Origin: Bolinopsis microptera
Taxonomy: Eukaryota; Ctenophora; Tentaculata; Lobata; Bolinopsidae
Assembly: GCF_026151205.1 (NCBI RefSeq)
Contig: NC_087078.1
Span: 3,923,675-3,987,674, forward strand
Direction of reading: 5' to 3'
Length of the DNA: 64,000 nucleotides
Shown one piece after another: positions 10,068-43,730 of the stretch. The notes under the pieces are model-generated. The model was not told the DNA's origin and did not search any database. It was given only the letters and a program-made list of their open reading frames with translations. A program made the translations under genes and the position numbers. How positions within the stretch are numbered: the stretch's first letter is position 1; each line of letters opens with the position of its first letter.

Positions 10068-10168
10068 TGTAAAACTGTTTTGTACGGCTGCAAAACCATA
10101 AAAACCAAAGTCACGTGAAATTTTTGGGCGAGCGAATTAATAAGAGCCCAACTTAGTAGCTGAGAAAG

Positions 10169-10262
10169 TTGTAAGTTTACAACCTACCAGGACGCGCGCC
10201 GAGTTGGACTCGTCGACGGTCCCAATATATGGAACAGATATTTTAAGAGTATCACCCGTTAA
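10169..10262 (-). mobile_element. T5 element (9-bp TSD), minus orientation
   Basis: 94 bp. Read on the minus strand it runs TTAACGGGTGATACTC ... GTAAACTTACAA. It is flanked by the exact 9-bp repeat CTGAGAAAG (10160-10168 and 10263-10271). It contains the AGTCCAACTCGG hairpin core described under the finding on T5. Confidence 0.85.
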
Positions 10263-10892
10263 CTGAGAAAGCAGAGTTCAGAGCAGAATTCAAGCGGAAA
10301 GCTGCCGACCAATCTAGGTAAATTAAAGGTAAAAATATAATATTAATCATAAGCTAAAATGTACTAATCTTTGTATTCTAAGTGGGGAAAAGAAGAAACA
10401 TTGTCAGTCAGTCGAGAAAATTGTCAGTCAGGCTATATGGCAGCTTTGTAGATGTTGTGACAATGCTATTGCTAGTAGTGGTCCCAGGCTTGCGACTGGA
10501 ATTGCGGTGTTAAATCGATTTAACGGTATACCAACGATCCACCTCCCACTTGTTGTTTGGTACTTAGCATTAATAGTGTAAGCTGTAGCCATTTATAGCA
10601 AGAATCTTAAAACTAAAGGGGATGACAAGGAAAAGAGGAAGGAAAAAGAATAACGGAGCAAATAATTAATTAAAGTATTTACAGGAGCATTAGTTATTGT
10701 ATTTGTAATTACAAGCTCTAATAATAAATCACTGACTAAAACATCTAATTAAAATGACACTTGGTACGCTCGCCCATTTTCACTGGTCAGTCTGAACTTC
10801 GGTTTAGCACGTTGTACACTTATTCACCTAAGTTTCAGAATTTTTTCAGTTTAGCAGAGTTAGTACCCGTGTTTCAATAAAATCAAAAGATA

Positions 10893-11607
10893 TCAGGGGA
10901 GTTGTTTAATAATTTTATGGTCATCTAGAATACCGAACTTCCTGAAAACGTTATTATATTTCCTCAGACAACGTTTAATACCTTTAATCAGTCTATCACG
11001 GCTATATCCTCTATCAATTAGAATTTTGAATATCTTGTGAAGATGGGAGGTAAAGATATCCAATCTAGTGCAAACATTACCATATCTAAGAACTTGACTT
11101 GAAAAAACGTTGTAGCCAACCTCGGTTGGGATGTTACTGTGGGGAAATGTAAGGGATACAACATGAAAATTAAAATCATCAGTTTTGTTATACACTGATA
11201 TTTCTAGTCCTTCTGTGGAAATATTAATATTTAAATCAAGGTAGTTAATGATTTTATTATTGGAACCAGCTCGCTCCATCTCCAATGAATTAGGATAAAT
11301 ATCTTTAATCAATTTATGAAAGTAAAGGTAGTTAATAATAGATAAATCGTCAACATATCGTTTATTATTGGATAATATCTTTGCTAATCCCATTTTCTTT
11401 TCCTGAAGTAAACGTTTCATATAATTAAATTCCTTTTTGCCAACAGTGAGATCAGCTATAGGGGAACTTGAATTTCCACCCATAGGAATACCCTTGGTTT
11501 GTATGAATACAATCCCACCGAAGACAACATAAGTGTTATAAATAATAAATTTAACAGCCTCTTTTAGGTCATCTTGACTAAAGCAGTCATGAGAATCATA
11601 GGTTCAC
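10893..11607 (-). pseudogene. Reverse transcriptase fragment (GIPMG...YVDD type)
   Basis: On the minus strand a frame open from about 11607 to 10893 gives roughly 238 residues of a reverse transcriptase. It shows KGIPMGGNSSSPIADL (palm motif B'), then KRYVDDLSIINYLYF with the catalytic YVDD, then NYLDLNINI and YNKTDDFNFHVVSLTFPHS. These match a family of animal retroelement RTs with a GIPMG/LDLN signature and a C-terminal helical block ending near the stop. The N-terminal fingers (with the first catalytic Asp) are absent, and an in-frame stop lies just upstream, so this is the C-terminal half of a dead element. No endonuclease is seen. The exact clade (Penelope-like or non-LTR) is not settled. 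Confidence 0.75.
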
Positions 11608-11756
11608 CTCTCAGCAACCCAAAACCTCCTCACCGTAGCCCTATCTACATGCCCACCTGAAATCAACGGGGAACTACCAAAACTAGAGTCTTTCGCGAAA
11701 ATTAAGTTTTGGATTATCTTTTTGCCATTGCTAAGTGTTTTGGACACGATGTTGCT

Positions 11757-12485
11757 GGGGGGGGGGGGGGGGGGGGGGGGGGGTTCACCCTGATTTTTTT
11801 GTGAAACTTGTTTTCGAGATAGCAGCTGACCAACAAACTAGGACCAGTGACCGAACTTTTGAGGGGGTCCCGGACCCCAACCGCCAAACGGTGCCCGCGG
11901 GGCAGCCACGCCCATATTTGGTCCAAATTAGGCCCAATTTAGCCAAATACCCTCAACATGCCCAAAATCCAGATTTTAGGTGCTTTACTTGTAGCTAGTA
12001 GTCCCTTGAACTCGTATATGAATTTTCATCAAGATTGGACAAAAAATGACTGAGTTATGAGCCAAAAACCATATGACCATATTTGGGCATACGCACCAAA
12101 TTTGATCGATTTTGGCCCATAAATTGGTCAAATATCAATATTTTTGAATGAAACCAACTTTATATGGAAGGTAAGCCTATACTACACATTCTCTATGAGT
12201 ATCAGCTCAATATCTACCTAACTGTGGATTCTGTGTTCAAATAATCGCAAAAAATTAACAAAATCGCATATATCTCAGTTCGCGATAATTGCAAAACTGA
12301 TTTCGCTCAAAACAATAGAACTCAATAGGGTTTCAATATTTTTACAAGAAATTTTCAGAATCAACGTAGAATCGCATTTCGACCTTAAGTTTTGTATTGG
12401 AATTTTGAGTTAGGCCTTTAAAAAAATTTGGCGGCCAAATTCTGAATTTCGCATTGCAAAATTTGGAATTTGGCTGCCAAATTTT
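11757..12485 (+). mobile_element. Half of a poly-G foldback element
   Basis: A run of over 20 G starts at 11757 and is followed by sequence matching the left arm and centre of the foldback at 15742-17131 (TTTTTTTGTGAAACTTG..., to the TTTGGCGGCC centre near 12430-12475). The second arm is missing. The apparent ORFs here, ending in ...PEHAQNPDF-type peptides, are arm sequence and not genes. Confidence 0.8.
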
Positions 12486-12639
12486 TGGAAACTTGTTTAT
12501 CAATATCTGTCAGTTAGTTCTAGTGACGATTGGGTTCAGTTGTCGTTTCAAAGTTAATTAGGTAGACTGATTGGGTTTTAAATTATTTTCCCAAGCTACC
12601 CTATCTAGGAAACGTCCAAATTGGGTTCAGTTGTCCGGT

Positions 12640-12930
12640 AGCCGTCCTATCACGTGACCGCTGATCCTATCACGTGACCTTGATTCGTAAATCCTCGGAC
12701 ACCTGATCACATTCGTCACCAGAACTCAAGCTACTTGATCAGGCCTTACATGGAATAGTATAGTGTATCGCGTGTAATTGGATCCAATTATAATAGGAGC
12801 TGCGCAATTATTGCAGCATCTTGATCTGGTATCACCTTCTGAAACCTAGTAGTAGTAATTTGAAGATAGAAGGATTTTGTGTTAATGAATATCGAAGCGA
12901 AAATCTATGTTTTCGTCGTTGCCAAGTAAA
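12640..12930 (-). repeat. Inverted copy of spacer segment found near 23.1-23.4 kb
   Basis: Reverse complement of about 23090-23395 (and 49615-49900), with shared landmarks such as TCACGTGACCTTGATTCG, AGCTACTTGATCAGGCC and the ATTGGATCCAATTATAAT block. In unit 1 this segment is flipped relative to units 2 and 3. Confidence 0.75.
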
Positions 12931-13292
12931 AGCCATACTACAGTACAGAGCTACTCAGCTAGATGATGAAGAGAAATTAAAACCTAAAACATAACTGATT
13001 TTTTAAATTTCCTCGATCAAATTTTTCAAGATAATAATGGAATAAAACCAAAGTGGAAACTATTAAAGTGTAAAACTTCATGATTTGAGTGGTCAATTGC
13101 ATTCATAGGTCTGCTTTATAGATAAAAATAACCTTTCATTTAAAATAATTGTTCTATTAATTTTCTGGGACGAAGGCATGGCACGTGGTCAGTCGTCAGT
13201 ACATCTAGCAAATGTTAAATAATGGTCACTAGCCGCATCAACCAAGATGTTATTGTTGTTATGTACGAGTGCTTGTAGCGTTAGGTTACTAT

Positions 13293-13377
13293 TTACTAGG
13301 CCGCGCTCAGCCTGTCATTCCGCCGAATCTCTATTCTATGTTCATGAACATATAAATAGCCTGAGGTCCCCAGGTAA
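13293..13377 (+). mobile_element. T4 element with paralogous empty site
   Basis: Starts TTACTAGGCCGCGC and ends CCCAGGTAA. GTTACTAT occurs on both sides (13285-13292 and 13379-13386; one extra C at the right). The paralogous site at about 22065-22085 reads through without the element. Confidence 0.85.
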
Positions 13378-13479
13378 CGTTACTATTTGTCACCCGCACA
13401 AACAGCTGGACTTGTACAGTAATGTCTTGACTCTTAGTAATTTTTATAGTAGTGGCTTCTTCATATAACTTACGATCAT

Positions 13480-13865
13480 GATAATCTATTTTTTTAAAAT
13501 CTAAAAGTGATCATTAGTCGAAAATTGGGAACAATTTTCATCTGCGCATGAACGTTTCTTGGAAAATTATCCCCAACTCTAAGTCTATGCTTCGGCAATG
13601 GTACTTTTGTGGCTAAAGACATGATTTTCAATGACAATAATTACGGCAAAAAGAAGAGCAAATTGTCGATTACGATTTTTCAAGTCGAGGCTCGGAAAAT
13701 TATCTCGCTTAGTTTCTCACCTCGCTCCTAGAATTGTGCTCTGCAGGAGATAATTTCCTTTGCGCCTGATCTTCAAATTTTCCACTCAAGTGGCCTCCAA
13801 ATCAGCATGAAAAAATAAAAATTGGCCAAGGAATAGAAGTTTTCGAGCCCAAAATTTGTGGTGTC
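13480..13865 (+). repeat. Spacer segment shared with 22.1-22.5 kb and 48.7-49.1 kb
   Basis: Conserved across three units (AAATTGGGAACAATT, GGAAAATTATCCCCAACTCT, TTTTCAAGTCGAGGCTCGG). Non-coding, AT-rich, just upstream of lectin A. Nothing in it translates well. Confidence 0.7.
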
Positions 13866-14034
13866 AAAAACGCAGTGCTTTTTTTGGCTGCTCTGTACTT
13901 GTAGGTTGTTTATAAAGTTTCTCTGTAGGAAATTACAAGACTGGGCACATTTCCAGCGCCTAGTCATATGAATCGTATATGACAGAATGTGTAAGCATAA
14001 TAAAAATTAATCATTTATCAGCATTTTATGTGAC

Positions 14035-17000
14035 ATGGAAGTTTACAAGATTTTCAGTATGGTGGCAATATTTTTGATTCCTTTAATAAGTGGTAAGTCT
14101 TGCTATTTTCAACTGATTGATGTAACTATTTGCTTTTCATCTTTTCAAAATTTTTATATTCTTTTTAGAAGATCCTTAGACTTCTTCGTCTCATCAGTAA
14201 TTTTTTATTGATGCTGGAATGACATTTTGCTAACTTAATATCAATTTATTCAATTGTTTTGCAGCATCAGAGAAGCAGTTGACTATCAAAAGATCAGTAT
14301 CTTTCAACCACCGTAACAACTACATTGCTGAAAAGGCACATGATAGAGACTATCAAACCTGGTACAGCGTAAAAGATGGAGCTGTGACTGGGAACTTTCT
14401 GAAGTTATATCTCTCACGAGCTTATAGCATCGGAGAAGTTAAGATGATTAGTAGGAGTGATAAACCATATTTTGCCGAAAGGATGAAGAACACAGAAGTT
14501 AGGGTCTACTCTACTAAAAATGTAGAGACCAAAGTGTCGAGTTGCGGAAAAATAAATGGTGATGAATTTTACATTTTTATATTTGTAAAATGTCCCTGAA
14601 GTTTAAATATAAGTTAATTGATTACTAAATAAATGATAACGAATCTCTCGCCAAGATCTTTAGTAGATGATTAATTAATGACTCTACACAAATTACAGAG
14701 GTGAATCCCGGGAACCCACAAACTATAGAGGATCGGACCTACTCTCTGAACTGTGACGGTGTAGTGGGGGACATGCTGTATCTCACTGATCTGGATTATG
14801 ACGCAGAAGTGGGACACAACATAGCTGAAGTCGAGATATTAGGGTCAGGTGAGTGCTATTATGAGATATGATATCGGTGCTGTACCATGTGATGGAATAT
14901 TGGAATGATTATACATAGTGTAAATATATTCCAATATTCCAAATTTACCTTACTAATACTTATGACTTATAAAATATTTTCAACAGCTCATGATAAGTTG
15001 TGTTTAAAAACTTTCTAAATTTTCGTTAAATAATTAAATATAAAATCGTACATTTTGGTCACGATGAAATGATTTTAATATTATTCAGAATATTTGTCGA
15101 TAGAACGATCTGAAGCAAAAAGCTGGTACAAAGACGCCTCATCTAATGAAGCTACACGTAATGCTACTGAGAAAGCTTATGACGGAGATTACATGACCAA
15201 CTATATGGTTAAGGACGATGATGCTGAAGGAAACTTCTTGAAGCTGTTCCTGCTAGAAAAGTACAGGGTAGGCACAGTGAAGCTGACAAACGTAAAGAAA
15301 GGTTGTTGCGGGCAACGAATACGTGGCACAGTGGTCATGGTGTATTCTGTTGACGAGAAGGGAGAAACAAAAGTTGCAGATTGCGGTAAAGAAATAACTG
15401 GTAAGTTAATTAACTTATAGCGTCAAATATTAATCTAGCAAAGTCGTGGCAGTACAGATGACAGAAGTTTCACTCATAAGATTTAAATTTAAAACAATTT
15501 GAGTATTAAGTCCTAAATGATATTTTCTTCAACCAGAGTACGATAGCAGTGTAGAATTCCAGACATTCTCTCTAAACTGTAACGGAGCAGCGGGGGACAT
15601 GATCTACATCACTGATACAGAACTTGATTATGGAGGAAAGCTAGGCCACTCTATATCTGAAGTGTTTGTGATAGAATCTACTCAACCCATACATGGCCGT
15701 AAGTTGCGCGAAACTGAAAACCGGTGCTATGGTTTCATTAAGGGGGGGGGACAATGGATATTTTTTTGTGAAACTTGATTTCGAGATAGCAGTTGACCAA
15801 CAAACTAGGGCCAGTGACCGAACTTTTGAGGGGGTCCCGGACCCCAACCGCCAAACGGTGCCCGCGGGGCAGCCACGCCCATATTTGGTCCAAATTAGGC
15901 CCAATTTAGCCAAATACCCTGAACATGCCCAAAACCCAGATTTTAGGTACTCTTCTTGTAGCTAGTGGTCTCTTGAACTCGTATATTAAATTTCATCAAG
16001 ATTGGACAAAAAATGACTGAGTTATGAGCCAAAAACCATATGCCCATATTTGGTCATACGCACCAAATTTGGTAGATTTCGTCCCATAGATTGGTCAAAT
16101 ATCAATATTTTTGAATGAAACTTACTTTATATGAAAGGTAAGCCTAAACTACATATTCTCTATAAGTTATAGCTTTATATCTGTTTAAATGTGGATACTA
16201 AGGCGAAAAAACCACAAAAAATGAACTAAATTGCCTGTATCTTGGTTCGCGATATTCGCGGAATTGATCTCATTAAAATTGTAACAACTCAATCAGTTTT
16301 CAAAATTTTTCCATGAAATTTTCGGGATCGACTCGAAATCGCATTTCCACCTTATTTTGAGAACAGATTTTTGATTTAGGCCTCCAAAAAAATTTGGCGG
16401 CCGAATTCTGAATTTTTCCGGGAAAATTTTGGAATTTGGCCGCCAAATTTTTTTGGAGGCCTAAATCAAAAATCTGTTCTCAAAATAAGGTGGAAATGCG
16501 ATTTCGAGTCGATTCCGAAAATTTCGTGGAAAAATTTTGAAAACTGATTGAGTTGTTACAATTTTAATGAGATCAATTCCGCGAATATCGCGAACCAAGA
16601 TACAGGCAATTTAGTTCATTTTTTGTGGTTTTTTCGCCTTAGTATCCACATTTAAACAGATATAAAGCTATAACTTATAGAGAATATGTAGTTTAGGCTT
16701 ACCTTTCATATAAAGTAAGTTTCATTCAAAAATATTGATATTTGACCAATTTATGGGACGAAATCTAACAAATTTGGTGCATATGCCCAAATATGGGCAT
16801 ATGGTTTTTGGCTCATAACTCAGTCATTTTTTGTCCAATCTTGATGAAATTTCATATACGAGTTCAAGAGACCACTAACTACAAGTAGAGCACCTAAAAT
16901 CTGGGTTTTGGGCATGTTCAGGGTATTTGGCTAAATTGGGCCTAATTTGGACCAAATATGGGCGTGGCTGCCCCGCGGGCACCGTTTGGCGGTTGGGGTC

Positions 17001-17087
17001 CGGGACCCCCTCAAAAGTTCGGTCACTGGTCCTAGTTTGTTGGTCAACTGCTATCTCGAAATCAAGTTTCACAAAAAAATATCCATT

Positions 17088-17131
<44 letters not shown>

Positions 17132-17386
17132 TTAATATGATATCATAGAACGGCTGCAGAGCAAGCAATCCCAGACTCCGCCTTTAAAACATGGTATTCG
17201 CGCAGTTTAGATGTAATTTTACTTAACTAAGATATCAAACGTGGGCAGCCTAATCATGTTGATTCGGAGGTCTTGCTGAATCAAATATGTGTCTCCTCCT
17301 CTTGCGGTGTAAAACATCGTCACCATTAATATTATTGTAATCATAATTTTTGATTTCTTTTTTTAGATTATTTTAGTATTCAATAA
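14035..17386 (+). CDS. Secreted two-domain FTP/F5-8C-like lectin, copy A
   Basis: Six exons join with uniform phase-1 junctions: 14035-14092, 14265-14558, 14699-14848, 15089-15400, 15537-15698, 17367-17386 (331 residues). Exon 1 is a signal peptide (MEVYKIFSMVAIFLIPLIS). Exons 2-3 and exons 4-5 each encode one galactose-binding-like domain of the fucolectin/tachylectin-4/pentraxin (FTP) kind. Shared marks are AHD-x-DYQTWYSVKDG then NFLKLYLSRAYSIGEVK, a SSCGK cysteine, then SLNCDGVVGDMLYL and IAEVEILG; the second domain has AYDGDYMTNYMVKDD, VADCGK and SLNCNGAAGDMIYI. In known families such domains bind fucose or related sugars and are often secreted immune or adhesive lectins; sugar binding here is inferred. 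Intron 5 contains a 1.39-kb foldback insertion. AATAAA at 17414 ends the unit. Confidence 0.85.
15742..17131. mobile_element. 1.39-kb foldback element with TTAA target duplication
   Basis: Two arms of about 670-700 bp are near-perfect inverted repeats meeting at about 16403-16437. The left end is G9 followed by ACAATGGATATTTTTTTGTG; the right end is its complement followed by 42 C. TTAA flanks both ends (15738-15741 and 17132-17135), while paralogues at about 25347 and 51952 have a single CATTAATATG. No transposase. A non-autonomous TTAA-target element (piggyBac- or Kolobok-type target choice) is likely. Confidence 0.9.
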
Positions 17387-17586
17387 TACTTTGAAGCAAA
17401 TTTGAAATAGTATAATAAACCGGCTGGACTACACTATTGAACTTGAAGTTGTAATCAAATTATGACAATATCCAATTATGGGTATTTGTCTAATCGTATT
17501 TTTCTTATGAGATCATTGTCGATATTAATCAACAGTTTACTTCATTTAGATTCTAAGACTTACAAGTTTAATTAAAGTTCAAATCA

Positions 17587-19684: not shown

Positions 19685-20137
19685 CTGGTTGGCAGTTGAG
19701 GTGCGTGCTGCAAGTTTATCACACATGGACATTGGACCTGTCACCTGGGTTACATTGTGCGTGCACTTACATACCGCATGATATTTTATTATAGGCCCCC
19801 GATCGGTGAAGTACTCCCCGCAGTGCACAGAACTGTTTTTAAAGTGCAAATTCTACTTTTTACTTTTTATTTATAATTTCCAATTTCATTTTTTTCGATT
19901 TTAACACAATTTTCGCAATGAATCATGAATGATCGTTAATCATTAAATTTAATGAATTATGTGGATTGTTTCTTTGTTCTTGTGCTTATACTTATTTAAC
20001 CATTAACAGATGGTACCTATATTTAAGTATTTGTTTCTATGAGAAATACTCGGTTCTGTACGTCATTAACCTAAAACTCTAAAAGTTACCCAATTTATAT
20101 TCCTAAAATTTTGGTAAAATAGGCATGGGCGTTGAAA

Positions 20138-20193
20138 TTGTCATAGGTTGTATGACCCGCCACGCACGAGTGCGCGGCTTCCCCTTTATCGCA
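20138..20193 (+). mobile_element. T1 element, 5' part
   Basis: TTGTCATAGGTTGTATGACC then the GCGCACTC/GAGTGCGC-type hairpin, cut off where MULE-derived sequence begins. Confidence 0.6.
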
Positions 20194-20560
20194 GCTAGAA
20201 CAAAACTTAAAAACAAGTTGAATGTGTAATTGTTCTGTCTTAGGTACAGTTTCTAGTAGTAGTAGTAGTAGTACCGCCGTACTGTCCAAAGTAAAATGGG
20301 TGTCATGTGATCCGCCGTTTTAACGGGTGATACTCGTAAAATATCTGTTCCATATACAGGACCGTCGACGAGTCCAACTCGGCGCGCGTCCTGGTAGGTT
20401 GTAAACCTACAATCCGCCGTTCCGTCCAACCTTTTTGGAAAGCACCGGCCTCCGCTGAACCGTCCTCCGCCGGACTGTACACCGCCGCAGTGACTTCCGC
20501 CACAGTGACCGGTTCCCGAATTTGAGGAATGTGAAGCACGCAAGATACTCAACTCAAGCT
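20194..20560 (-). mobile_element. MULE subterminal relic, interrupted by T5
   Basis: Matches, in reverse, the left inner end of the MULE at about 52400-52640 (AAGTTGAATGTGTAA, CTGTCTTAGGTACAGTTTCT, then CCGCCGTACTGTCC and CCTCCGC motifs). It lacks the outer inverted ends and transposase. A T5 element lies inside it at 20320-20412. The sister copy is at 42646-42920. Confidence 0.75.
20320..20412 (+). mobile_element. T5 element with exact empty site
   Basis: 93 bp, TTAACGGGTGATACTCG ... GTAAACCTACAA, flanked by TCCGCCGTT on both sides (20311-20319 and 20413-20421). The sister locus 42772-42780 has a single TCCGCCGTT and no element. Confidence 0.92.
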
Positions 20561-20646: not shown

Positions 20647-20692
20647 TTGACATACGTTGCATGCCACTTTTCGCGCGCGAAACATGTATCAA
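20647..20692 (+). mobile_element. T2 element, 46 bp, with exact empty site
   Basis: Starts TTGACATACGTTGCATGCC, has a TTCGCGCGCGAA palindrome at its centre and ends ACATGTATCAA. It is flanked by GTGTGAAA (20639-20646 and 20693-20700). The sister locus at 42998-43005 has one GTGTGAAA and no insert. Confidence 0.9.
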
Positions 20693-20998
20693 GTGTGAAA
20701 TAAGGACTTAGTTTATTTCCTGTTGTTTAGACGACTCAGCCGAATGACCAGGAAAATTTAGACGAGTAGCCTCGCTCGTGTATACTATAAGTATACCTGA
20801 ATTGAACCTACGCTAACCTTTTCAGGTCCTTTCTATAATAAGCCGGTTTCTCAATAGCCATCATGATGTTGAATTTACTGAATAGATGAAATAGAACAAC
20901 TAATGATAAATTTAAACGGTTTTCCCAACTCCATAGATTTACTGTTAAACTGTAGAATGTAGAAGTTTTAAACACAAACTCGCAAACGCACTCTTAAC

Positions 20999-21085
20999 TT
21001 AACGGGTGATACTCGTAAAATATCTGTTCCAGGACCGTCGACGAGTCCAACTCGGCGCGCGTCCTGGTAGGTTGTAAACCTACAA
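20999..21085 (+). mobile_element. T5 element
   Basis: 87 bp between ACTCTTAAC repeats (20990-20998 and 21086-21094). The same insertion is present in the sister segment at 43403-43489, so it predates that duplication. Confidence 0.88.
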
Positions 21086-21324
21086 ACTCTTAACTTGTAA
21101 TAATATAATATGTAATAATAATATAGATTATATTATAGTGTATAGTAGTCTACAGGTAAGTCATAAGTAAGCCCCCCACGCACGACTATTTAGTTGAGGC
21201 TCTTACGGGCAAAAAGACGTGTTTTATGCTATGAGTTTGGAGACCTAACCATTAATTGGACACAATAGTATGATGTGTAAGGATCAAGAATATGTTTAGA
21301 ATTATAAATAGGACTTTATATTAT

Positions 21325-21357
21325 TTAACGGGTGATACTCGTAAAATATCTGTTCCA
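21325..21357 (+). mobile_element. Truncated T5 head
   Basis: TTAACGGGTGATACTCG continuing to ATCTGTTCC only; the hairpin half is missing. The sister copy at 47579 carries a further insertion inside it. Confidence 0.65.
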
Positions 21358-23290
21358 TATATTGCTATACCAATGCGCGTTTTAAACTTTGACAGTCTAT
21401 AACTCTTAGGTGCAATATAATAATAAAAGTATTCACATTCATAATTTGTCAGCAATAAGATCACATTGTCAATTGTTCTCTATTTGGTGAGAAAATATGA
21501 GCTAAAACAGACCTAATCTCACTGAGTTATAGCTGTTATAAACCTAGCCGGGTTAAACATGCAGTACATTGCGTTCAGTACTTATAATTAATATAATGTT
21601 GATAGTTATAGTTTATGTTCTTACTCTTATTGGAATGCTGATTATGCTGAGGCTATCATTCACTTAAAACAATATGCTGTAATGTTTTGCGCGTTTCGTT
21701 GATTTTTATCGCTGAACCAGATTTTAAAAGACTTTAAACAATCAATCTAGCAGGAGAAGTAGGTGAACTGTAAAGTTTTAAGGTCATTATTGCTAAACAA
21801 TAGTCGATTAAGGTATTTTCGGGTCATCTTCATTCTAGTTAGTGTAGGGACTACGGGTGGAAGATGAATAATTAAAATTCCAACAGCATCTTCAATTTTG
21901 TTCCCTTCATTGTGCTGATTCCGGGAAGCATTTTTGTAACGCTCTCATGGTACTGTAGAATGAGATATCGTTGATTTAAAATTGGGTAATTATAGCAAAT
22001 GTTGAATAATGGTCACTAGCCGCATCAACCAATACGTTGTTATGTACGAGTGCTTGTAGCATAACGTTACTATTTGTCACCTACAAACAGCTGGACTTGT
22101 AGAGTAATGTCTTAGTAATTTTCATTGTAGTGGCTTCTTCATATAACTTACGATCATGATAATCTATTTTTCAAAAAATCTAAAAGTGCAAGTGACCATT
22201 TGTCGAAAATTGGGAACAATTATCTTCTGCATGAACGTTTCTTGGAAAATTATCCCCAACTCTATGCTTCGGCGATGGTACTTTTGTGGCTAAAGACATG
22301 ATTTTCAATGACAATAATTACGGCAAAAAGAAGAGCAAATTGTCGATTACGATTTTTCAAGTCGAGGCTCGGAAAATTATTTCGCTTAGTTTCTCACCTC
22401 ACTCCTAGAAGTAGAATTGTGCTCTGCAGGAGATAATTTTCTCTGCGCCTGATGTTCAAATTTTTCCACTCAGGTGGCCTTCAAATTAGTATAAAAAAAT
22501 AAAAATTGGCCAAGGAATAGGAGTTTTAGAGCCCAAAATTGGTGGTGTCAAAAACGCGAATTAAATAGATAATAATTATTTTAGTCTCTTGAGTCTTGAC
22601 TATAGGGTTATACGGGTTCCTGCTAGTTTATCTAAAATTGATATATTATATCAATTGGGGTTTATTATGGTTTCTAAAGTTCTAAGATACCGTATCTTAC
22701 TTTATATAAAGCCATTCATATCATCAACCGCTATGAAGACTTGAAATACTGCTTATAGGAGTCCCGATACAATCCTTGGCAGTCCTTTTCGATATTGGTT
22801 GAATATATCCGTATTCGTTGATATTAAGCAAATATTTGGAAAAATTTCCTTCGTCTTCTGAACTATCATTGACATTAGCTGAGAACTAGAGTCATAATTG
22901 TTTATAATTACTGAGATTCGGCAGAGAGACCGGTGCCATCCGATAAGCCGCTCGGGCGCTTTCCTTAGCTTATAATAACATCTATGACAGCCAAGTGCAT
23001 TTTAAAGAAATTTTCCCTTGAGTATGATAATCAAAACCAGTTTTATCGTGTTCAGCGTCCTCGAAAACATTTACATAGGGTTACATGATTTTCGCTTCGA
23101 TATTCATTAACAAAAAATCCTTCTATCTTAAAATTTCTGGCCCAGCTGCCTGCTAGGTTTCAGAAGGTGATACCAGATCAAGATGCTGCAATAATTGCGC
23201 AGCTCCTATTATAATTGGATCCAATTACACGCGATACACTATACTATTCCATGTAAGGCCTGATCAAGTAGCTTGAGCTCTGGTGACGTA

Positions 23291-28023: not shown

Positions 28024-28136
28024 TTGACCATTGTTAATGGTCTGGCCCGGCGCGCGCTACTTCGTAGCACTTGCCATTTCGAGAAGAAAGCGGCGCGCGC
28101 TACTTCGAAGAAATTTAGACGAGTAACATCCGTCAA
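28024..28136 (-). mobile_element. T3 element
   Basis: 113 bp, TTGACCATTGTTAATGG ... GTAACATCCGTCAA, with two GGCGCGCGCTACTTCG hairpin blocks. It is flanked by GTGAAACAA (28015-28023 and 28137-28145), an 8- or 9-bp duplication. Confidence 0.82.
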
Positions 28137-30544: not shown

Positions 30545-30795
30545 TTAATACTAATCAACCCCTGATCTCCTGACAGCATGATATAATATTACGTAATCAT
30601 GGCCTGACCCCGGCCCCGGGTCATCTTAATTTTAGTTAGTGGTGATTGGAGAACCAACAGCTGGATTCTAATCGGAGAGCCAGTAACTTTATTTAGGGAA
30701 TCCAGATACCGTAGACTAAGCACCTATGTCAAACTTCAGCTTCTAATGAAAACAAATATATGCCTCAAAACGTTCGGCAGAGCTTACACTTACAG

Positions 30796-30940
30796 TTACT
30801 GGGCCGCGCTCAGCCTGTCATTCCGCCGAATCTCTATGACTTAATTTACTCTATTGTTTATGATTAATATGATTCATGTTTATGATTAATATGCTATCAT
30901 GTTCATATTATGAACATGATAGCCTGAGGTCCCCAGGTAA
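30796..30940 (+). mobile_element. T4 element with expanded AT centre
   Basis: TTACTGGGCCGCGCTCAGCC ... CCCAGGTAA, 145 bp. The middle holds repeats of TTTATGATTAATATG and an ATGTTCATATTATGAACAT palindrome. The same insertion is at 58490-58590 with a shorter centre. Confidence 0.8.
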
Positions 30941-35116: not shown

Positions 35117-38100
35117 TGATTGTTGTTGCGAAAGTTTGATCGGATCTGTGAATATAAAGTTGTGTTTATAGTGTCCGATAAAAACTGATTTCAAAATAAT
35201 ACTATAACCTTCCGGATCCTGTGGACCACGAGCCTTCTGTATTTTACTATTTCAATTAAGTGAGATTTGACCTTTTTTTGATTGTTTTTGCAGAAACTTT
35301 TAAGCTTTTACTCAAGGTTCCGTTTTGCCGGGGAATATAAACATAGTATAGCAAAGATATTACATATATTATTGCACATTAACGTGTAAGTTGTTCGGTC
35401 ATAGATCTTAAATTAGCTACTGGATCTCAATTTAGTTCTAGAACACTTTAGGGGAGTTAAATGATATAAAACTATAGCAGATAGCTCGCCTGTAGTAATC
35501 TCTGGAGTATCTATTGTTTTAATGCCCACAGTTTATTTGCGGTTTTGAAGTTTATTGCCACGGGTAACATTTATTTGTACTGTATTTTCCTGGTATAGAT
35601 ACTCGATTTATTAATAAGTTAACATTCTTTGAATATTTTTAGGAACGGGGATCAGAGTTATTGAAATGCATGCAGGGGACGTCCTGATGTTTTGTTTGAC
35701 ATCCTGCTGAACCTTATCAGGGTCGATAGGACAGTCAATATACTGTTCGTCTCAAATTTAAATCAATTTATGGGATTATGCGATAAGCTTAAGGCTACCG
35801 TTTATTACAATTTTGCTGTTCTGTTATCTTTTAGTTTAATACTAAAATATATATTTTATCGGACGTAGGAATTGTGTCACAACTGCAGACTTGCTGCCGA
35901 CTGTTCTGACAATCAGATATGAATAACGTGCAGACAGAATGCAATTAACTTCCTGGAGGTCGCTGACTGGTTTAATAACGATAATCTCCTGATGTAGGTC
36001 ATTGGGAGTCACAGCTCACAGCATTCACAGCTATAAAATTTTTATAGTTAAAATGTTAGTACTGAATGAATATATTATTATAGATATACTAAAAGGCAGT
36101 TGGCATCACGAAAAATCCTTATCAACAAAGATACAGGTCATTTTTTAAATGTAAAACTACTAAAAAATTTAAAAAATTGTGAGGTTCTAACTCCATTTGC
36201 GAGGCTGAATGGATAATCGAATAAAGATTTATATGGAAATAAATTGTATTTTAAAATATACACGATCGAGGCACATTAAACAATTTCCGACGAAATTTTT
36301 TTTAATAATATTATATAGGTTATATGCTGACACGTTAAAATAGTTTTCGCTGCAAACGAGTTTCCTCTGTAAAATAGTTGTTGAATCATTCAGATAATTT
36401 TGTAAAGAAAGCTGTTGGTCGAGGGGTATTCTTCGACTACAGGTCGAAGATGTCTACGAAAATAATCAAAACTATTGAATTTCTAAGTATATAATTGTGA
36501 ATTATTCAAAATTATCCTCATTTAGTAATTTCAGTCCTTTTTTTTGACTAATTTAGTAGCCCAAACTCCGATTTACCGCTTTTTTTTACTCTCACATCTG
36601 AAGCACCAGATCAATTTCAATGGGAAATAAGGAAATATTTTTGTATATTCTCCAAAGTGGCGTAAATTTTGTGTAAAGAATCGTTTTAATTTCAGGTAAA
36701 ACATGATATATTTTAAGAGGCAAAATTCACTATAATTGCTGATTTAAGAATGAGATGAATGACTTCAAGGAACTGAGAGTGTTATAGTCTGAGTGTAAAT
36801 AGACTAAAAGAAATTGTAGAAAATGGTTAACTTTAGTTAGGATTCACGTCCTCTACGACCTTTGGTTTTAGCGCACTGAATCTTGTGGTCAGCGCACCCA
36901 TCCGTTGTCTCTTGTTCTTAAATATAGAGATATATAAAATATGGTGAATATATGAAATATGAGTAATTAAAATTCGATCGGAAGAGAGTTTTAATTTCTA
37001 TGTCAGTTAAAATAGCTCAAGCATATAACAAAAGTCGTCGAATTTCGATGTTTCTTTCATTTTCGGTTTTGCGCACTGTGATATACTGGACACGGTAAGG
37101 CATGATCAAAGCACGATTCTTGGGGGAGATTGAGTTGTGATGGAGTATTTTTTTCACCACAAGAACGGGGTTGAAGATTATAACACTTGTTTAAGCAGAA
37201 ACGATGTTGTACCTTTTGAACTGATTGACGTAGTACTTCCTTTTCAATCTTTTCCAGTGTCTAAAATTTCAGGAGGGCCCAAACGCGCAGAGAGGAATAT
37301 GTACGTGCGCGTTCAAATCCATCAAACAGCAAAACAACAACTTGATTAGCTTTTGTTTTTCTGTGGTTGGGAACTGCTGAAGATAGGACATATTTTTACC
37401 ACAAGATTTTCTTTTCAGCATAACTCAGATATTATCGGATAAATACTAAGATTAGAGAATGATTTTTAAAAAAATTATTTTCATATAATATATTTTTTAA
37501 ATTTTATTTATATAACTGTCAACTGATGTGTTTGGACTCTTTCACTGTCCTATATTCAAATGAACCCTTCATTTTATCGGTTTTTCTCTTGTGTTAAAAG
37601 TTCGTTGACTTAAAAGCCATTTTTCTTCTATTTTTCATAAAAATTTTCCATTCGATCTCGAAAAATAAAGCTATAGAATTAGAGTGGTTCGGACTCTAAT
37701 GTTGGAGGGGTCTGGATTTTAGGAAGTGCCTAGGACAGAACTTACGGCGTAGGAGGAGTCCAAAACAGTACCCTACAAGCGACAATATAAAATTTCCTAT
37801 TTTCATTTAAAATAGATTCTAGGATGGCAAGGTTCACGGAAAGTGTTCTTTATAAACACAGGGACTAAATACAACAGAATAAAAATTTCACGGTGGTAAT
37901 AAAACATTGTGACACCCAATGGTTTCGACCTTTAGAAAGTATTAGATGATTGAAAAATAATACTATGGATAGATAGCTCGACGAGTTAGATAGAAATACC
38001 TAAAGTGCTGAAGCGTGCTAAGATTAATCAATAAGAGGCGTACATAGAAGCAAAAACACTAAAATATTGGTGTCGGGACAGGAGTGTGTTACCGAGGTAA

Positions 38101-39107
38101 AGCATGGAGGGAGATGATACTTACACAACGAGAGTTCATTGGTGCACGCCCTCAAAATTATTTGAAGTACTGTTATAGTGGATTATATTATCTGCACTCT
38201 GCAGATTGCCGAAGGCTTTATGTTGTCCACTCCGATATTACGAGCTGATCAAGTGGCATTTGAATTATAGCGGCCACTGCTGCACAAATCATTCGATTAC
38301 GATTCTTCCGATCTTTCAAGTTCTACATCACAACAGGTGACAGGGAAATTCGGATATAAATTTTACGCTCATCCGAGAAAAAATGGCGAGAATTTTCTTG
38401 TTCCAGCCTGATTTCTTTCGGTTTCCCACGTCCAAGTCCTGACTCTGTTCTGTAGGGTATGTCTCGCGCTGTTGAGTCCCGGATTCGGAATGGGACTCCT
38501 AAGTTTTTTTCTTATATTAATATATACGAATGATTAACGGAAAGTATCAAATCAGAATTAATTTCGACTCAGAATTTCTCAATCACAATTAGTTCAATAG
38601 TTGTTGAAAGAAATGTCTTGTTTTGCTTGTCAGTGCTGTCATTCTTTTGAGTATAAAATAGAGTAGGTTATTGATGGTTGGGGTTTTATCGGATGATTAA
38701 GCGTGGTAGTATGTCTGTGATGTAGAATTGATGAATGTGGGAGGAATAGGTAACAAACTATAATATTATACGGCGCGCTATTTAAATGCCGCTCTATCCA
38801 CCCAAGTGTCACGGAATCTAAGTGGCAAGTATAATTACAACATCAAGACTTGGTTTTGGGCATCTTCAGTTAAATTTTAAATTGGAATGCATTAATACAC
38901 CATTATAATACATTTCGATCCTTTTGTCAGACCAAGCATGTTCTACTTTCAACTTCACTGACAGTTCAGTGTACACAGTGACGGTTGCAAGATGTGTGAA
39001 ATGGCGCCAAACAAAGGTAAGCGCGGCCTTCAATAAATAACTAATTAGTCAAATAGCTGCCTTTCTCAGTGTGACACAAATAAACGCGCGCGGCGACAAA
39101 CCACCAT
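35117..39107. other. 4-kb AT-rich block, nothing recognised
   Basis: Unique in the window, not part of the RFC2-lectin unit. I see no gene, RNA or clear repeat. Base-level noise and short ORFs only. Confidence 0.4.
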
Positions 39108-40295
39108 AAGTCTCAATTGAAATGACACACATGCGCCACCTAATGATTTACATTACTATAAACCTGGTAGCGGCATGTCTGTCACTTTTTCGTTTTGGAC
39201 AAACATGCGTACTGATTTTTCATGAAATCAATAGGTGGCGCATTGTGAGTCATTTCATGCAGGATTATTACGTAAGGGCTGGGAAACCCCAATTCGTTTT
39301 CCTCCGTGATAGATTGAGTCATCATGAAGACTTGGCTAGAGTGAGGTCATCGAGAGTCCGCACAAAATGACCCAGGTTCATAGAATGAACGGAAATGAAC
39401 GGATCTGAATTGTATCTAAAAATTTACTCATATAATGGTTCAAAATTGGTCTGAAGAATTTGGTTGGTCCTAGGACCATCCCTAGCAATTTTGGGAATTA
39501 CTAATTAGATTTTTGGTGGCATTTCGAAGACATGAGGATGTAGTATTCACTGTATTTGAGTGCTGGGAAGCATTAATTCGGTTTTCTTACAGCCTCAATC
39601 ACAGCTTTATACTTCGATGGCCCGGGTCCCATGGCCATAATAATGTATATGGGGCTATTAATAATAGCCAATGGATCCCTTCGTCCAAATTTGTGGAGTG
39701 GTCGCAGGACCACACCAAAATCCTTCAGGACCAAATTTTGTAACAATTATGAGCACTTTCTCGGATACAATTTCATTTCCGTTCATTACCGTTCATTCTA
39801 TGAAACCTGCGGTTCATTTTGTGCGACTCTTCGATGGTCTTATAGGCCTAGCTTATGACAGATCCTATCATAGAAAAACCGAATGGAGGTTCCAGCCCTT
39901 ACGTATAGTCTCAAATTGAATGACACACATGCGACTCCTATTGATGTAATGATAACCTGTTCCTAGCGCATGTGTATCATTCTTTTTTTATGACACACCA
40001 TTGCGCTACTAGGAAGGCATGTGTATATTCATTTTTTTTCGACACACATGCCGCTAAGCCAGTTATCATGTAAATTACAATAGGTGCGATGTGTGTCATT
40101 TCAATTGGAACTTATTACGAAAGGGTGGGACCCCCCCAATTCGTTTTCTATGATAGATAGTGTTACATAAGCTAGGCCCTAAAGACCATCGAAAGTCGCA
40201 CAAAATGACCCAGGTTAATAGGATGAACGGAATTGAAACGGAAATGAAATGTATCCTGAAAGTGTCATAATGGTTCCTAAATTGGGTCATGGAGG
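39108..40295. repeat. Nested inverted repeats with TGACACACATGCG ends
   Basis: The block 39110-39160 (CAATTGAAATGACACACATG...) is matched in reverse at 40065-40115. Inside, a segment at 39260-39440 (GGGAAACCCCAATTCG, AAATGACCCAGGTTCATAG) recurs inverted at 39770-39905, and again directly at 40120-40290. Small TGACACACAT palindromes also recur at 42510-42640. This looks like a foldback element that has inserted into or copied itself. Confidence 0.7.
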
Positions 40296-40305
40296 GAGTT
40301 TTGTT

Positions 40306-40748
40306 GTAACCAAGTCATAACATGTTATATCCATGTCATGACCATGTCATACATGTATAAACCATGTATAACATGTCATAACCATGTCATAACCAGATGT
40401 CATAACCATGTCATATACCATGTCATATCCATGTCATAACCTTGTCATAACCAATGTTCATAAACATGTCATAAAACCATGTACATAACCTTTTCATAAC
40501 CATGATCATAAAATGTCATAAACATGTTCATAACACATGTCCTATCCATTCATAACCATGTCAAACCATGTTCAAACATGTCATAACATGTCAGAAACCA
40601 TGTTCCATAAACATTTTCTAACCATGTCATTACCATGTCATACCTGTATTACCATGTCATAACAATTTTGGTTTTCATATCCATGTCATAACCATGTCAT
40701 AACACATGTCATACCATGTATAACATGTAATAACATGTCATAACCTTG
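40306..40748 (+). repeat. Degenerate minisatellite, unit about CATGTCATAAC
   Basis: About 40 imperfect copies of an 11-bp unit (CCATGTCATAA) with many small indels over roughly 440 bp. Confidence 0.85.
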
Positions 40749-41242
40749 TTAAGACAAATGCGTCATAGAAATGTCACAAGCTGGACCACTATGATTGCAG
40801 TAAACAATAAAAGAGTTATTTATAAAAACTAATTATGATTATAACCGAGAAACACGTTTACTTTCTTCATTATTACATATTTTGAAAATGTGCTGTAATT
40901 ATTTTGTAATTCGCAGCTGTACAGGCAATACAGATGTTTTTAATTATTAGTACTTAGAAGACTGCTCAGGCGCATCAAATAATGTTTTTTGACTACGATC
41001 GGCGCGATGCACTTTTATTAACTGGGCCGTACTGCCAGCTAACTTGACATGTAAAATATTGACGTTGTTTTTATTCGTTTTCGTAAATGATTAAACGGTT
41101 GCGGAATGACATTGAAAAGGACAGGCTGAGCGCCGCCAGTAACACAGACATTCGAAAAGAAGTTGCGCGTGTTACTTCGAACAATTTAGCAAGCATCATC
41201 GTCGGACGTACCGGCGAGTTCAATTTCCAATCTTTCTTTAAC

Positions 41243-41338
41243 AGGTGATACTTGTAGTCGTAAAATATTTGCTTCAAAATATTAGTCAGGACCGTCGACG
41301 AGTCCAACTCGGCGCTCGTCCAGGTAGGTTATAAACAT
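41243..41338 (+). mobile_element. T5 element, diverged
   Basis: TTAACAGGTGATACTTG ... GTCGACGAGTCCAACTCGG ... GGTTATAAACATACC. The hairpin core is kept and the ends are eroded; no target duplication is seen. Confidence 0.6.
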
Positions 41339-41623
41339 ACCAAGTCAACGGTCGCGATCATCATTTGTTATTTCTTCGCCCCCGCTTATGCTATACGTGG
41401 GCGAAAGCCCGATACGACCGCGCAGCCACAACGAAGGGTCTGGGGTAATAATTTACCGGATGGGTGCAGGGGGAAATTGGTAAAATACGACTTCATCTTT
41501 CATTAATTGTGAATTGTTTAAAATTCTCATATCAGGTAAACAAGCAACGTTTGTTTTTAATTTTTTACTATAAGTATAACTATTAGTGACGGATTGTTAT
41601 CGTTTAAATTTTTCGTTGGAAGT

Positions 41624-41700
41624 TTACTGGGCCGCGCTCAGCATCAGCATGTTCATTTCCGCCGAATTTATTAATATGATTATGAACATATATAATAACT
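41624..41700 (+). mobile_element. T4 fragment
   Basis: TTACTGGGCCGCGCTCAGC followed by a damaged centre; the right end is missing. Other scraps of this family lie at about 41105-41140 (inverted) and 42060-42095. Confidence 0.5.
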
Positions 41701-42509
41701 AATTAAGTGCAAGTAAGTAAAGTAATATTTCATTGCTAGGAATGTGGCACCCAATACGGTACGGGTAACCATTAACATCATGAGTTTTTGCCTTTTTGCT
41801 TTGCATAGCAGCTCAGCGAGGTACGCAGGGGTGAAGGGTGCATTTTGCCATATCTAACGACAACACAGGTGGCCTTACGACGAAGAATCATTTTGCCTTA
41901 TGGGATTATGCGCGGCAAGCTTGCTAGTTGATCGAAGTATCCCGAAACTGTTAGTCATTATCATTGATAAACAATAAACACATTTTTGGAACTGGCAGTT
42001 GGCTGATACAACGAATTGCAATTCGAATCTTCGCACCGATCCCAGGATTCAATATGCAATACTTGGCGGCGCTCAGCCTGTCATTCTACCGCACGCGCAG
42101 CAGGCAGCTTCATTCATCCATAGCTCCATTCTCCAATGAGTATGTTTATAAATATTATAGCTTGTAGCACGATGCGTTACTGTGCCGCGCCGCGCATTCA
42201 ATTATTGATTATGCTTCTTGCAACGCTAAATCGGTGAAAGGCGCTACTGTGCCTCGCCGAGCTGCGATGAATTGACATCGTCAATTAACATATATTATAG
42301 CCTGTGCAGCAACAGTACACGCGCTTTAACCTAACCATGTGCTTTCGCGCCACTGACTGCAGCGTGCAGGCGCGCTCGTTTCACACGGGAGGCGAGCGGA
42401 CGCGGAGAGGAGTTTAAAGATAAAATAGAGATAAGGATAAAATACATATATAAATAGATAAAGATAGCGATTAGAAAATTAAATAGAGATTTTACAGCAA
42501 TTTTACAAA

Positions 42510-42640
42510 AATGACACACATGGGCCACCTAATGATATACATGATAAACCTGGTAGCGCATGTGTATCAAAAAATTTTTTGACACACATACGCTACCTAG
42601 GAAGCGCATGTGTATCATTATTTTTTTTGACACACATGCG
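42510..42640. repeat. Short inverted repeats of TGACACACATGCGC type
   Basis: Alternating ATGACACACATG and GCGCATGTGTATCA blocks, the same family as the ends of the 39.1-40.1 kb repeat. Confidence 0.65.
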
Positions 42641-42645
42641 CTTTA

Positions 42646-42920
42646 TCGTAGCTAGAACAAAACTTAAAAACAAGTTGAATGTGTAATTGTTCTGTCTTAA
42701 TTAGGTACAGTTTCTAGTAGTAGTAGTAGTAGTGCCGCCGTACTGTCCAAAGTAAAATGGGTGTCATGTGATCCGCCGTTCCGTCCAACCTTTTTGGAAA
42801 GTACCGGCCTCCGCTGAACCGTCCTCCGCCGGACTGTACACCGCCGCAGTGACTTCCGCCACAGTGACCGGTTCCCGAATTTGAGGAATGTGAAGCACGC
42901 AAGATACTCAACTCAAGCTG
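42646..42920 (-). mobile_element. MULE subterminal relic (uninterrupted sister copy)
   Basis: Same relic as 20194-20560 but without the T5 insertion, so it provides the empty site. Confidence 0.8.
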
Positions 42921-43123
42921 TCAGACGAGGTGCCACTCCTTTCCTTTTGCAGTGCGGTCACTTTTTATAAGTTGAGCCCCTAAATTTTCAATACTTGGTG
43001 TGAAATAAGGACTTAGTTTATTTCCTGTTGTTTAGACGACTCAGCCGAATGACCAGGAAAATTTAGACGAGTAGCCTCGCTCGTGTATACTATAAGTATA
43101 CCTGAATTGAACCTACGCTAACC

Positions 43124-43208
43124 TTGATACATGTTTCGTATCCGCCTTCGGATACGCCTTCGGCGGCGCGCGCTTCGCGCGCGAAAAGTGGCATGCAACG
43201 TATGTCAA
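43124..43208 (-). mobile_element. T2 element, 85 bp, with exact empty site
   Basis: Starts TTGATACATGTTTCG and ends GCAACGTATGTCAA, flanked by CGCTAACC (43116-43123 and 43209-43216). The sister locus 20811-20818 has one CGCTAACC. Compared with the 46-bp T2 it carries about 39 bp of extra GC-rich hairpins at the centre. Confidence 0.9.
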
Positions 43209-43402
43209 CGCTAACCTTTTCAGGTCCTTTCTATAATATTAATAAGCCGGTTTCTCAATAGCCATCATGATGTTGAATTTACTGAATAGATGAAATAGAA
43301 CAACTAATGATAAATTTGAACGGATTTCCCAACTCCATAGATTTACTGTTAAACTGTAGAATGTAGAAGTTTTAAACACAAACTCGCAAACGCACTCTTA
43401 AC

Positions 43403-43489
43403 TTAATGGGTGATACTCGTAAAATATCTGTTCCAGGACCGTCGACGAGTCCAACTCGGCGCGCGTCCTGGTAGGTTGTAAACCTACAA
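43403..43489 (+). mobile_element. T5 element
   Basis: Flanked by ACTCTTAAC on both sides (43394-43402 and 43490-43498). Orthologous to the insertion at 20999-21085. Confidence 0.88.
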
Positions 43490-43730
43490 ACTCTTAACTT
43501 GTAATAATATAATATGTAATAATAATATAGATTATATTATAGTGTATAGTAGTCTACAGGTAAGTCATAAGTAGGCCCCCCACGCACGACTATTTAATTT
43601 TAGTTGAGGCTCTTACGGGCAAAAAGACGTGTTTTATGCTATGAGTTTGGAGACCTAACCATTAATTGGACACAATAGTATGATGTGTAAGGATCAAGAA
43701 TATGTTTAGAATTATAAATAGGACCTTATT

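Follow-up and report, generated by a model that had tools for sequence, protein, structure and literature searches.

T5, a MITE-like repeat of the ctenophore Bolinopsis microptera, and the hairpin build of its two ends

T5 and related elements at the locus

The window, i.e. the whole 64,000-nucleotide stretch of B. microptera DNA analysed here, contains copies and pieces of T5, a repeat of about 90 nt present at very many genomic sites, together with elements of the families F2 to F6, which share its plan (Table 1). Filled and empty sites of such elements are both present within the window. The T5 copy at 20320 lies within the remains of an inverted repeat belonging to the MULE-bearing element of the window, and its site has an uninterrupted counterpart at 54773; the uninterrupted counterpart of the F4 site is 21325-21364, and empty counterparts of the F3 element and of the 85-bp F6 element lie near 21548-21560 and 20808-20820, respectively. 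The T5 coordinates and 9-bp repeats listed by an earlier, sequence-only reading were all correct on recheck, although a decayed fifth copy (41238-41342) and two 5'-end pieces (21325 and 47578) had been overlooked. That reading had also treated the copies at 20999 and 43403 as a single insertion, and they are indeed counted as one since both lie within one segmental duplication (20810-21323 with 43208-43733, 96.6%).

Table 1. Positions of T5 and of elements with T5-like ends in the window
Feature	Position	Strand	Target duplication or remark
F5-family element, 87 bp	8973..9059		exact 8- or 9-bp duplication (rule scan)
T5 copy, 94 bp	10169..10262	(-)	9-bp duplication CTGAGAAAG at 10160-10168 and 10263-10271
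T5 copy, 93 bp	20320..20412	(+)	9-bp duplication TCCGCCGTT
F6-family copy, 46 bp	20647..20692	(-)	8-bp duplication GTGTGAAA; one of two end hairpins incomplete
T5 copy, 87 bp	20999..21085	(+)	9-bp duplication ACTCTTAAC
T5 5' 40 nt alone, remainder absent	21325..21364	(+)	matches the first 40 nt of the 8,505-bp element exactly
F2-family element, 113 bp	28024..28136	(-)	9-bp duplication GTGAAACAA
F5-like element, 157 bp	30784..30940		8-bp duplication (rule scan)
T5 copy, decayed	41238..41342	(+)	no exact duplication scored
F6-family element, 85 bp	43124..43208	(+)	8-bp duplication CGCTAACC
T5 copy, 87 bp, segmental-duplication twin of 20999-21085	43403..43489	(+)	ACTCTTAAC
T5 5' end, broken by F4 insertion	47578..47602	(+)	
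F4-family element, 126 bp, within T5 5' end	47603..47728	(+)	9-bp duplication GTAAAATAT
F3-family element, 115 bp	47947..48061	(+)	8-bp duplication GGTTAAAC
F2-family element, 124 bp	57878..58001	(+)	8-bp duplication CTTATACT

In the 264.65-Mb genome, the 19-nt core of T5 has 1,734 exact copies and its 5' 20-mer has 2,149, while the reversed pattern of each has none; in the window the core occurs five times with up to 3 mismatches, where shuffles lead one to expect zero. Seventy-seven cores were read (72 in 60 stretches of contig C1 and the five of the window), and duplications were scored on the 52 with near-intact ends. An exact duplication was found in 32 of these 52, of 8 bp in 19 copies and of 9 bp in 13; five more had one mismatch and 15 had none. 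Among flanks of other lengths from 4 to 12 there were two exact matches, and flanks paired across different T5 copies matched exactly in 3 of 2,652 cases. The mobility of T5 proposed from the window is therefore borne out by copy number and target duplications, although the duplication, given there as 9 bp, is either 8 or 9 bp long.

T5 has several properties of a MITE: it is short, non-coding and multicopy (intact copies in the window are 87-94 bp), it has a target duplication of fixed length, and it shares its ends with a longer element, described below. It lacks terminal inverted repeats, as the left and right 19-mers are identical at 8 of 19 positions, and the earlier statement that the ends are not plain inverted repeats holds. 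The duplication also falls within the 8-10 bp of MULE/Mutator elements (PMC5225508). hAT elements are not known to make duplications other than 8 bp, and were rejected since 13 of the 32 exact T5 duplications are 9 bp; Helitron or IS605-like elements, which are not known to duplicate their target, were rejected since T5 does so. Overall, T5 is almost certainly a transposon with an 8-9 bp target duplication, and probably a non-autonomous, MITE-like one.

A guess that larger elements with T5 ends exist was confirmed by an element of 8,505 bp (G000:C1:2524532-2533036) with the target duplication TGTTATGT, whose first 40 nt and last 56 nt are those of T5 and whose 5' subterminal 124 nt occur at 29 places. 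A search for an ORF of 100 aa in this element found none, nor did a search for an ORF above 113 aa in an F6 element of 5,331 bp. Since the 8,505-bp element has both T5 ends and its own duplication, T5 is most probably derived from longer elements by internal deletion, and T5 copies would arise from long elements in this way.

Internal fold of T5

The sequence-only reading had also suggested a selected fold in the interior of T5, for which compensatory changes in the stems would be expected. Such changes are nearly absent. For the R stem, counts on 52 and 26 T5 copies add up to 546 cells, of which 524 are unchanged, 17 are broken, 4 are changed on one side, and none on both. In the M stem, counted on T5 copies which were not selected via the core, 123 of 156 cells are unchanged, with 17 gaps, 8 broken, 7 one-sided, and 1 two-sided. 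Therefore, a selected internal fold is unsupported, since compensatory change within T5 is almost nil. T5 was obtained independently of the element rule introduced below, and covariation within this family is virtually absent. Nor do the loops stand out as constant, as had been thought: substitutions amount to 4.0% in the M loop versus 5.4% in the M stem, and to 10-13% in the R loop versus about 2% in the R stem. Fold prediction pairs most of CGTCGA/GCGCGC, the supposed internal loop. Two T5 copies (L122 and L139) have the duplication with most of the internal hairpin missing; the exact junction of the hairpin-less copies occurs at 3 places only, one of them on a small contig, which falls short of proving the internal hairpin dispensable.

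A structured-RNA origin, in which T5 would be a SINE-like or ribozyme-bearing retroelement that spreads via RNA copies, is extremely improbable. The predicted T5 RNA fold of -32.8 kcal/mol (z -3.4, equalled by 0 of 200 shuffles) would favour such an origin; however, the fold of the DNA strand is equally remarkable (z -5.5), the duplications are fixed at 8 or 9 bp, there is no A-rich tail, the 5' ends are intact, both ends are common to the 8.5-kb element, and internal covariation and Rfam matches are lacking. Rfam gave 0 matches for the window at gathering cut-offs and 0 for three T5 loci (L003, L009, and L062) at E<=1, and T5 was therefore rejected as an Rfam family or known ribozyme on covariance models over the window and these loci.

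Terminal hairpins in T5 and its sister families

A new feature is the hairpin build of both ends, a plan common to T5 and at least five other families. Each T5 end consists of TT and a hairpin with a 7-bp stem and a 3-nt loop, one of the two being imperfect; the right-end hairpin had been described before, whereas the one at the 5' end had been missed. A rule which demands a target duplication, TT..AA, and 7-3-7 stems, and nothing else, recovers T5 and five further families (F2-F6). Applied to 162,644 bases (the window and L001-L088), it returned 53 distinct elements, and 0 in five block shuffles. On all sequence examined, a loop of 3 gave 80 rows versus 0, 0, 1, and 0 in four shuffles, and loop lengths of 1, 2, 4, 5, and 6 gave 4, 0, 0, 0, and 0 rows. 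Of the 80 loop-3 rows, 47 cluster with T5 and 7 are artefacts or repeats (five that represent one end inside an AT-rich tandem array, another from a tandem array of 346 bp, and a one-base shift), leaving 73. Among openly available papers, none was recognised as describing elements with 7-3-7 hairpin ends; AcademH is reported with 9-10 bp duplications (PMC10045372).

The TT-7-3-7 geometry is found at 12 ends of six families, and the stems differ in sequence from family to family, and likewise from one end of a family to the other, with pairing retained. In the consensus ends, 69 of 84 stem pairs are Watson-Crick, a figure inflated by selection since the rule that found the families demands hairpins. 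When left and right stems are compared, 15 of 42 pairs are altered on both sides and still paired; neither 69/84 nor 15/42 was reached in 10,000 arm shuffles. The fold of the terminal hairpins is kept while the sequence changes across families, a pattern not seen within T5, and these hairpins are quite likely to be under selection. A strict fold requirement is spoken against by the incomplete hairpin of the duplicated 46-bp F6 copy and by the imperfect hairpins, one per family with 1-3 of 7 pairs affected. Left-end stems are mismatched in all six families, and this tolerance, with the same F6 copy, would suit a reading in which the hairpins are an unrecognised by-product, e.g. palindromes from hairpin intermediates at transposon ends. 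Such an origin is rather doubtful, since one geometry is common to 12 ends despite different stems and loop lengths other than 3 are nearly missing.

Candidate transposases and known systems

The best explanation overall is that T5 is probably a non-autonomous, MITE-like, hairpin-ended transposon which is moved in trans. In this scheme, a DDE-type transposase would act on T5 and make cuts staggered by 8-9 bp in the target DNA, and the ends that it has to find would be the two hairpins. Since the two ends of one family differ in stem sequence and both pair, the enzyme would read two-fold symmetry or an extruded hairpin at least in part, rather than a fixed inverted repeat; recognition of the ends by fold and not by sequence is proposed here tentatively.

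Thirty MULE, IS1595/Merlin, and Mutator loci were read, and none had a transposase within a hairpin-ended element; the flanks covered 13 of 88 MULE, 10 of 58 IS1595, and 7 of 18 Mutator matches, with TT-hairpin ends in none. A relaxed search at IS1595, Mutator, and MULE loci with one mismatch allowed in the duplication found 0 cases of TT..AA and 0-2 for each of eight other dinucleotides. P-element-type (PF21787) and KDZ (PF18758) models had 0 matches, which does not show absence since the controls matched nowhere either; for hAT, 150 matches of 366 candidates were scored. In viral contigs, the 25-nt right end of T5 and the F3 end had 0 matches, and in prokaryote contigs the 19-nt core had 2 exact matches, both actinobacterial, which is about chance for 257 billion bases. 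An 18-bp Mnemiopsis satellite dimer described in PMC11797021 had no match in the genome studied here.

A MULE-type enzyme is the first guess for the T5 transposase by analogy of duplication length alone, at somewhat under an even chance, and one from an undescribed lineage is a less likely second. A serious possibility, though short of even, is that T5 is an ordinary Mutator-like MITE, whose palindromic ends would be a dimeric transposase site read by sequence. The duplications of 8 or 9 bp, which show no strong preference for particular sites, resemble those of Muta1 (PMC5225508, in the part available), the genome has 88 MULE and 18 Mutator-domain matches, and the MULEs delimited here likewise duplicate 9 bp (L092, L093, and L097) or 8 bp (L096 and L101). 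However, these MULEs carry true and different inverted repeats of GG/GA/CG type, a TT-hairpin start was seen in 0 of the 20 out of 106 MULE/Mutator loci read, and ends agreeing at 8 of 19 positions are insufficient for a single sequence-specific site. The window's own MULE (52820-54283) was rejected as the T5 source, as T5 bears no relation to its inverted repeats (52420-52575/54732-54887), a relic of which has received the T5 copy at 20320 as an insertion. Membership of T5 in IS1595/Merlin elements is improbable. The 58 IS1595 matches have intact-looking frames and, in the part of PMC8101967 available, Merlin duplicates 8 or 9 bp and includes one family with very divergent ends; but Merlin termini are GG there while T5 has TT at both ends, the delimited copy L109 has GGCAGTATCGAGATAGCCCG ends with the 8-bp GAGCACAG, and hairpin ends were seen in 0 of 10 loci read out of 58.

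It is also conceivable, if unlikely, that T5 belongs with its sister families to a group of animal DNA transposons not described so far, in which the transposase would recognise TT-tipped 7-3-7 hairpins at both ends and insert with an 8-9 bp stagger. If so, the enzyme would respond to an extruded cruciform or to a single strand in folded form instead of to inverted repeats, and the sequence of each end would be free to change while pairing persists. Recognition by shape would join hairpin recognition, known from duplication-free elements, to insertion with 8-9 bp duplication, and would explain both the mobility of elements below 100 bp, in some cases near 50 bp, and the divergence of an element's two ends. 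TT, 7, 3, 7 with an 8/9 duplication is itself a search rule for families that inverted-repeat searches would overlook. Hairpin-ended elements account for much of the repeated-hairpin content of this genome, and many such hairpins might wrongly be read as RNA structures or regulatory motifs.

Among known systems, MITEs resemble T5 in being short, non-coding, of high copy number, flanked by a target duplication, and derivable from a longer element; they have the terminal inverted repeats from which they are named, whereas T5 has two dissimilar hairpins. In IS200/IS605 and Helitron elements, hairpins at or near the ends serve as recognition signals, which is similar to T5, but these elements are not known to duplicate their target, in contrast to the 8 or 9 bp of T5. 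Merlin/IS1595 elements share 8-9 bp duplications, and one reported family has highly unequal ends; however, their termini are GG with inverted repeats of 24-462 bp, while T5 starts with TT (PMC8101967, available part). Muta1, an animal MULE of Aedes aegypti with many non-autonomous derivatives of altered interior, is like T5 in its 8 or 9 bp duplications with no clear site preference and in a 10-bp imperfect palindromic terminal motif (PMC5225508, available part); it differs in that it has 145 bp inverted repeats and subterminal tandem repeats, whereas T5 has no inverted repeat and two different 7-3-7 hairpins.

Copies of T5 and their target duplications

T5 is a mobile DNA element of about 90 bp, with target duplications of 8 or 9 bp and with longer relatives that carry the same ends. 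The copies described in the sequence-only reading were exact on recheck, both in coordinates and in flanking repeats. The window has five occurrences of the 19-nt T5 core, GTCGACGAGTCCAACTCGG, where zero are expected; in the whole assembly (264.65 Mb, 232 contigs) there are 1,734 exact occurrences of the core and 2,149 exact matches of the 5' 20-mer, and none of either pattern read backwards. Two subfamilies are discernible by eye in the alignment, one with ATATCTG and the right loop GTA, the other with ATATTTG and the right loop ATA. Nested or tail-to-tail pairs and composites are present in stretches L014, L043, L080, and L142, some within one common outer duplication, e.g. TGTGGTACT around 250 bp in L014.

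Duplications were counted in 60 stretches of contig C1, picked by the exact core and all from one chromosome since they were drawn from the first 100 places listed. These stretches and the window combined contain 77 cores, and both ends are near-intact in 52. Exact duplications were found in 32 of these copies, so that their existence was borne out, but the length first given as 9 bp is 8 bp in 19/52 and 9 bp in 13/52; five copies have a duplication with one mismatch, and fifteen have none. When exact flank matches of 4 to 12 bp were considered, all but two were 8 or 9 bp long, and pairing flanks across different copies gave 3 exact matches in 2,652. The base preceding the 5' end in the 32 exact-duplication copies is T in 14, C in 10, G in 8, and A in none. 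The first base past the 3' end is T in 8 of the 32, unlike the A-free 5' side.

Insertion by elements of the T5 plan can be seen directly within the window, where filled sites are matched by empty ones supplied by multi-kilobase segmental duplications (6034-28560 and 42667-61761). Translated pieces of these duplications resemble replication factor C, and a weak match to an F5/8-type domain was also noted in them.

Ends of the six families, and insertions in the window with their counterpart sites
Family	Source of ends	Left end	Right end	Insertion	Counterpart
T5		TTAACGGGTGATACTCGTA (outside inward)	TTGTAGGTTTACAACCTAC (outside inward)	copy 20320, within repeat	uninterrupted form at 54773, with other letters beside site
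F2	rule scan	TTGACGGATGTTACTCGTC	TTGACCATTGTTAATGGTC		
F3	rule scan	TTGTATCACGTGGTGACCC	TTGTCATACGTTGTATGAC	47947-48061	empty site 21545-21570
F4	rule scan	TTGATTCACGATGTCAATC	TTGTAGCGCGATGCACTAC	47603-47728, inside T5 5' end	uninterrupted T5 5' end at 21325
F5	rule scan	TTACTGGGCGGCGCTCAGC	TTACCTGGGGACCCCAGGC		
F6	later rule scan	TTGATACATGTTACGTATC	TTGACATACGTTGCATGCC	43124-43208	empty site 20805-20830

A hairpin plan common to the ends of six families

Both ends of T5 consist of TT followed by a 7-bp stem arm, a 3-nt loop, and the second 7-bp arm (TT-7-3-7); the right stem is perfect, and the left has one G.T pair and one mismatch. Elements were sought by a rule with three requirements and no others: 7-3-7 stems, TT..AA, and an exact duplication of 8 or 9 bp. 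In the later scan, which covered the window and the loci read (338,557 bases including overlaps), 80 rows were obtained with a loop of 3, as against 4, 0, 0, 0, and 0 with loops of 1, 2, 4, 5, and 6, and four shuffles gave 0, 0, 1, and 0. Of the 80 rows, 47 cluster with T5, for which the loci had been picked. The five other families, F2 to F6, account for 24 (8 F5, 6 F4, 5 F2, 3 F3, and 2 F6), and two more rows are F5-like. Seven were dropped: five whose common end lies within an AT-rich tandem array (L066), one in a 346-bp array of L064, and one that is a one-base shift of another row. The hairpin plan is common to all six families.

Pairing within copies and across families

The predicted fold of T5 has a hairpin at the left and another at the right, with a compound middle stem between them; its energy is -32.8 kcal/mol as RNA (z -3.4) and -21.9 as DNA (z -5.5). 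A selected internal fold had been proposed from loops that seemed constant in drifted copies; the loops show no special constancy, and the stem changes are those of drift rather than compensation. Copies with an unrecognisable end were removed before counting, so that 52 of the 77 cores remained, and 26 of the 53 loci that had been picked by the 5' end. For the latter 26, the middle-stem cells divide into 123 unchanged, 17 gapped, 8 broken, 7 changed on one side, and 1 on both. In the right stem (52 + 26 copies) 524/546 cells are unchanged and none is two-sided. In the left stem of the 52 core-chosen copies 5/312 cells are two-sided, four of the five at a single pair, and 28 are broken. Moreover, parts of the middle stem are missing in several copies that keep their duplication (L122, L139).

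Across the consensus ends of the six families, 69/84 stem pairs are Watson-Crick, a count to be read knowing that five of the families came from a rule demanding stems. Left and right ends differ on both sides of a pair, with pairing intact, in 15/42 cases, although the two ends may have arisen as separate palindromes rather than by divergence from a single one. When the 3' arms were reshuffled 10,000 times, the means were 31.9 pairs and 1.8 two-sided differences, with maxima of 54 and 10. With a partly mixed consensus for F6, the two observed counts came out at 70 and 15. Under either origin of the ends, their geometry is fixed and their letters are free. It may be that the enzyme recognises the fold of the ends. 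Every left end contains an imperfect pair, two right ends contain two, and a 46-bp F6 copy (20647-20692) has a duplication with one hairpin incomplete; together these argue against the fold being strictly required.

Longer elements and the candidate enzyme

Some T5 copies have a right end with no left end nearby. Larger elements with T5 ends and their own duplication, anticipated in the sequence-only reading, do exist: G000:C1:2524532-2533036 is an 8,505-bp element flanked by TGTTATGT, which opens with the T5 5' module (positions 1-40) and closes with the 3' module (8450-8505). It contains four direct repeats, each some 900 bp long, and no reading frame of 100 aa was found in it. Its 5' subterminal 124 nt match at 29 places, 27 of them on the 13 large contigs, where 9/27 lie less than 600 kb from a contig end (1.6 expected). 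Elements of this type have long tandem repeats, with units of about 200 bp by eye in one (L083). At a second locus, from C1:3598186, the interior stands in reverse orientation behind a T5 right end, and two further loci match over the first 136-163 bp only; therefore, interiors have been exchanged. Nested in a relic of an 8.5-kb-type element is one of 5,331 bp that has F6 ends and the duplication GCCGTAAT (L064, 2398-7728). In view of the longer elements, T5 would most simply be an internal-deletion derivative.

T5 may be moved in trans by a DDE enzyme. Transposase matches in the genome number 88 MULE, 58 IS1595, 18 Mutator, and at least 150 hAT-dimer; in the flanks read (13 MULE, 10 IS1595, 7 Mutator, and 0 hAT-dimer) no transposase match lay between TT-7-3-7 ends. 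L117 simply contains an F4 and a T5 insertion. Where a MULE could be delimited, its inverted ends are of another kind, and its duplication is 9 bp (L092, L093, L097) or 8 bp (L096, L101) long; one IS1595 copy (L109) has GG ends and an 8-bp duplication. These lengths allow a MULE or a Merlin (IS1595) enzyme for T5; its end sequence points to neither.

In the region 52145-55428 of the window, a MULE frame (FLYWCH + MULE) is enclosed by long inverted arrays and, further out, by GGCAGTATCGAGATAGCCCG-type ends, which also flank the IS1595-bearing element of L109, with its 8-bp duplication GAGCACAG; possibly, MULE and IS1595 elements nest or have ends in common. Minisatellite-like arrays form the inverted ends of several such elements (L104-L111, L093-L097).

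The nearest described case to T5 is Muta1, a MULE of Aedes, for which PMC5225508 gives duplications of 8 or 9 bp and an imperfect palindromic terminal motif.
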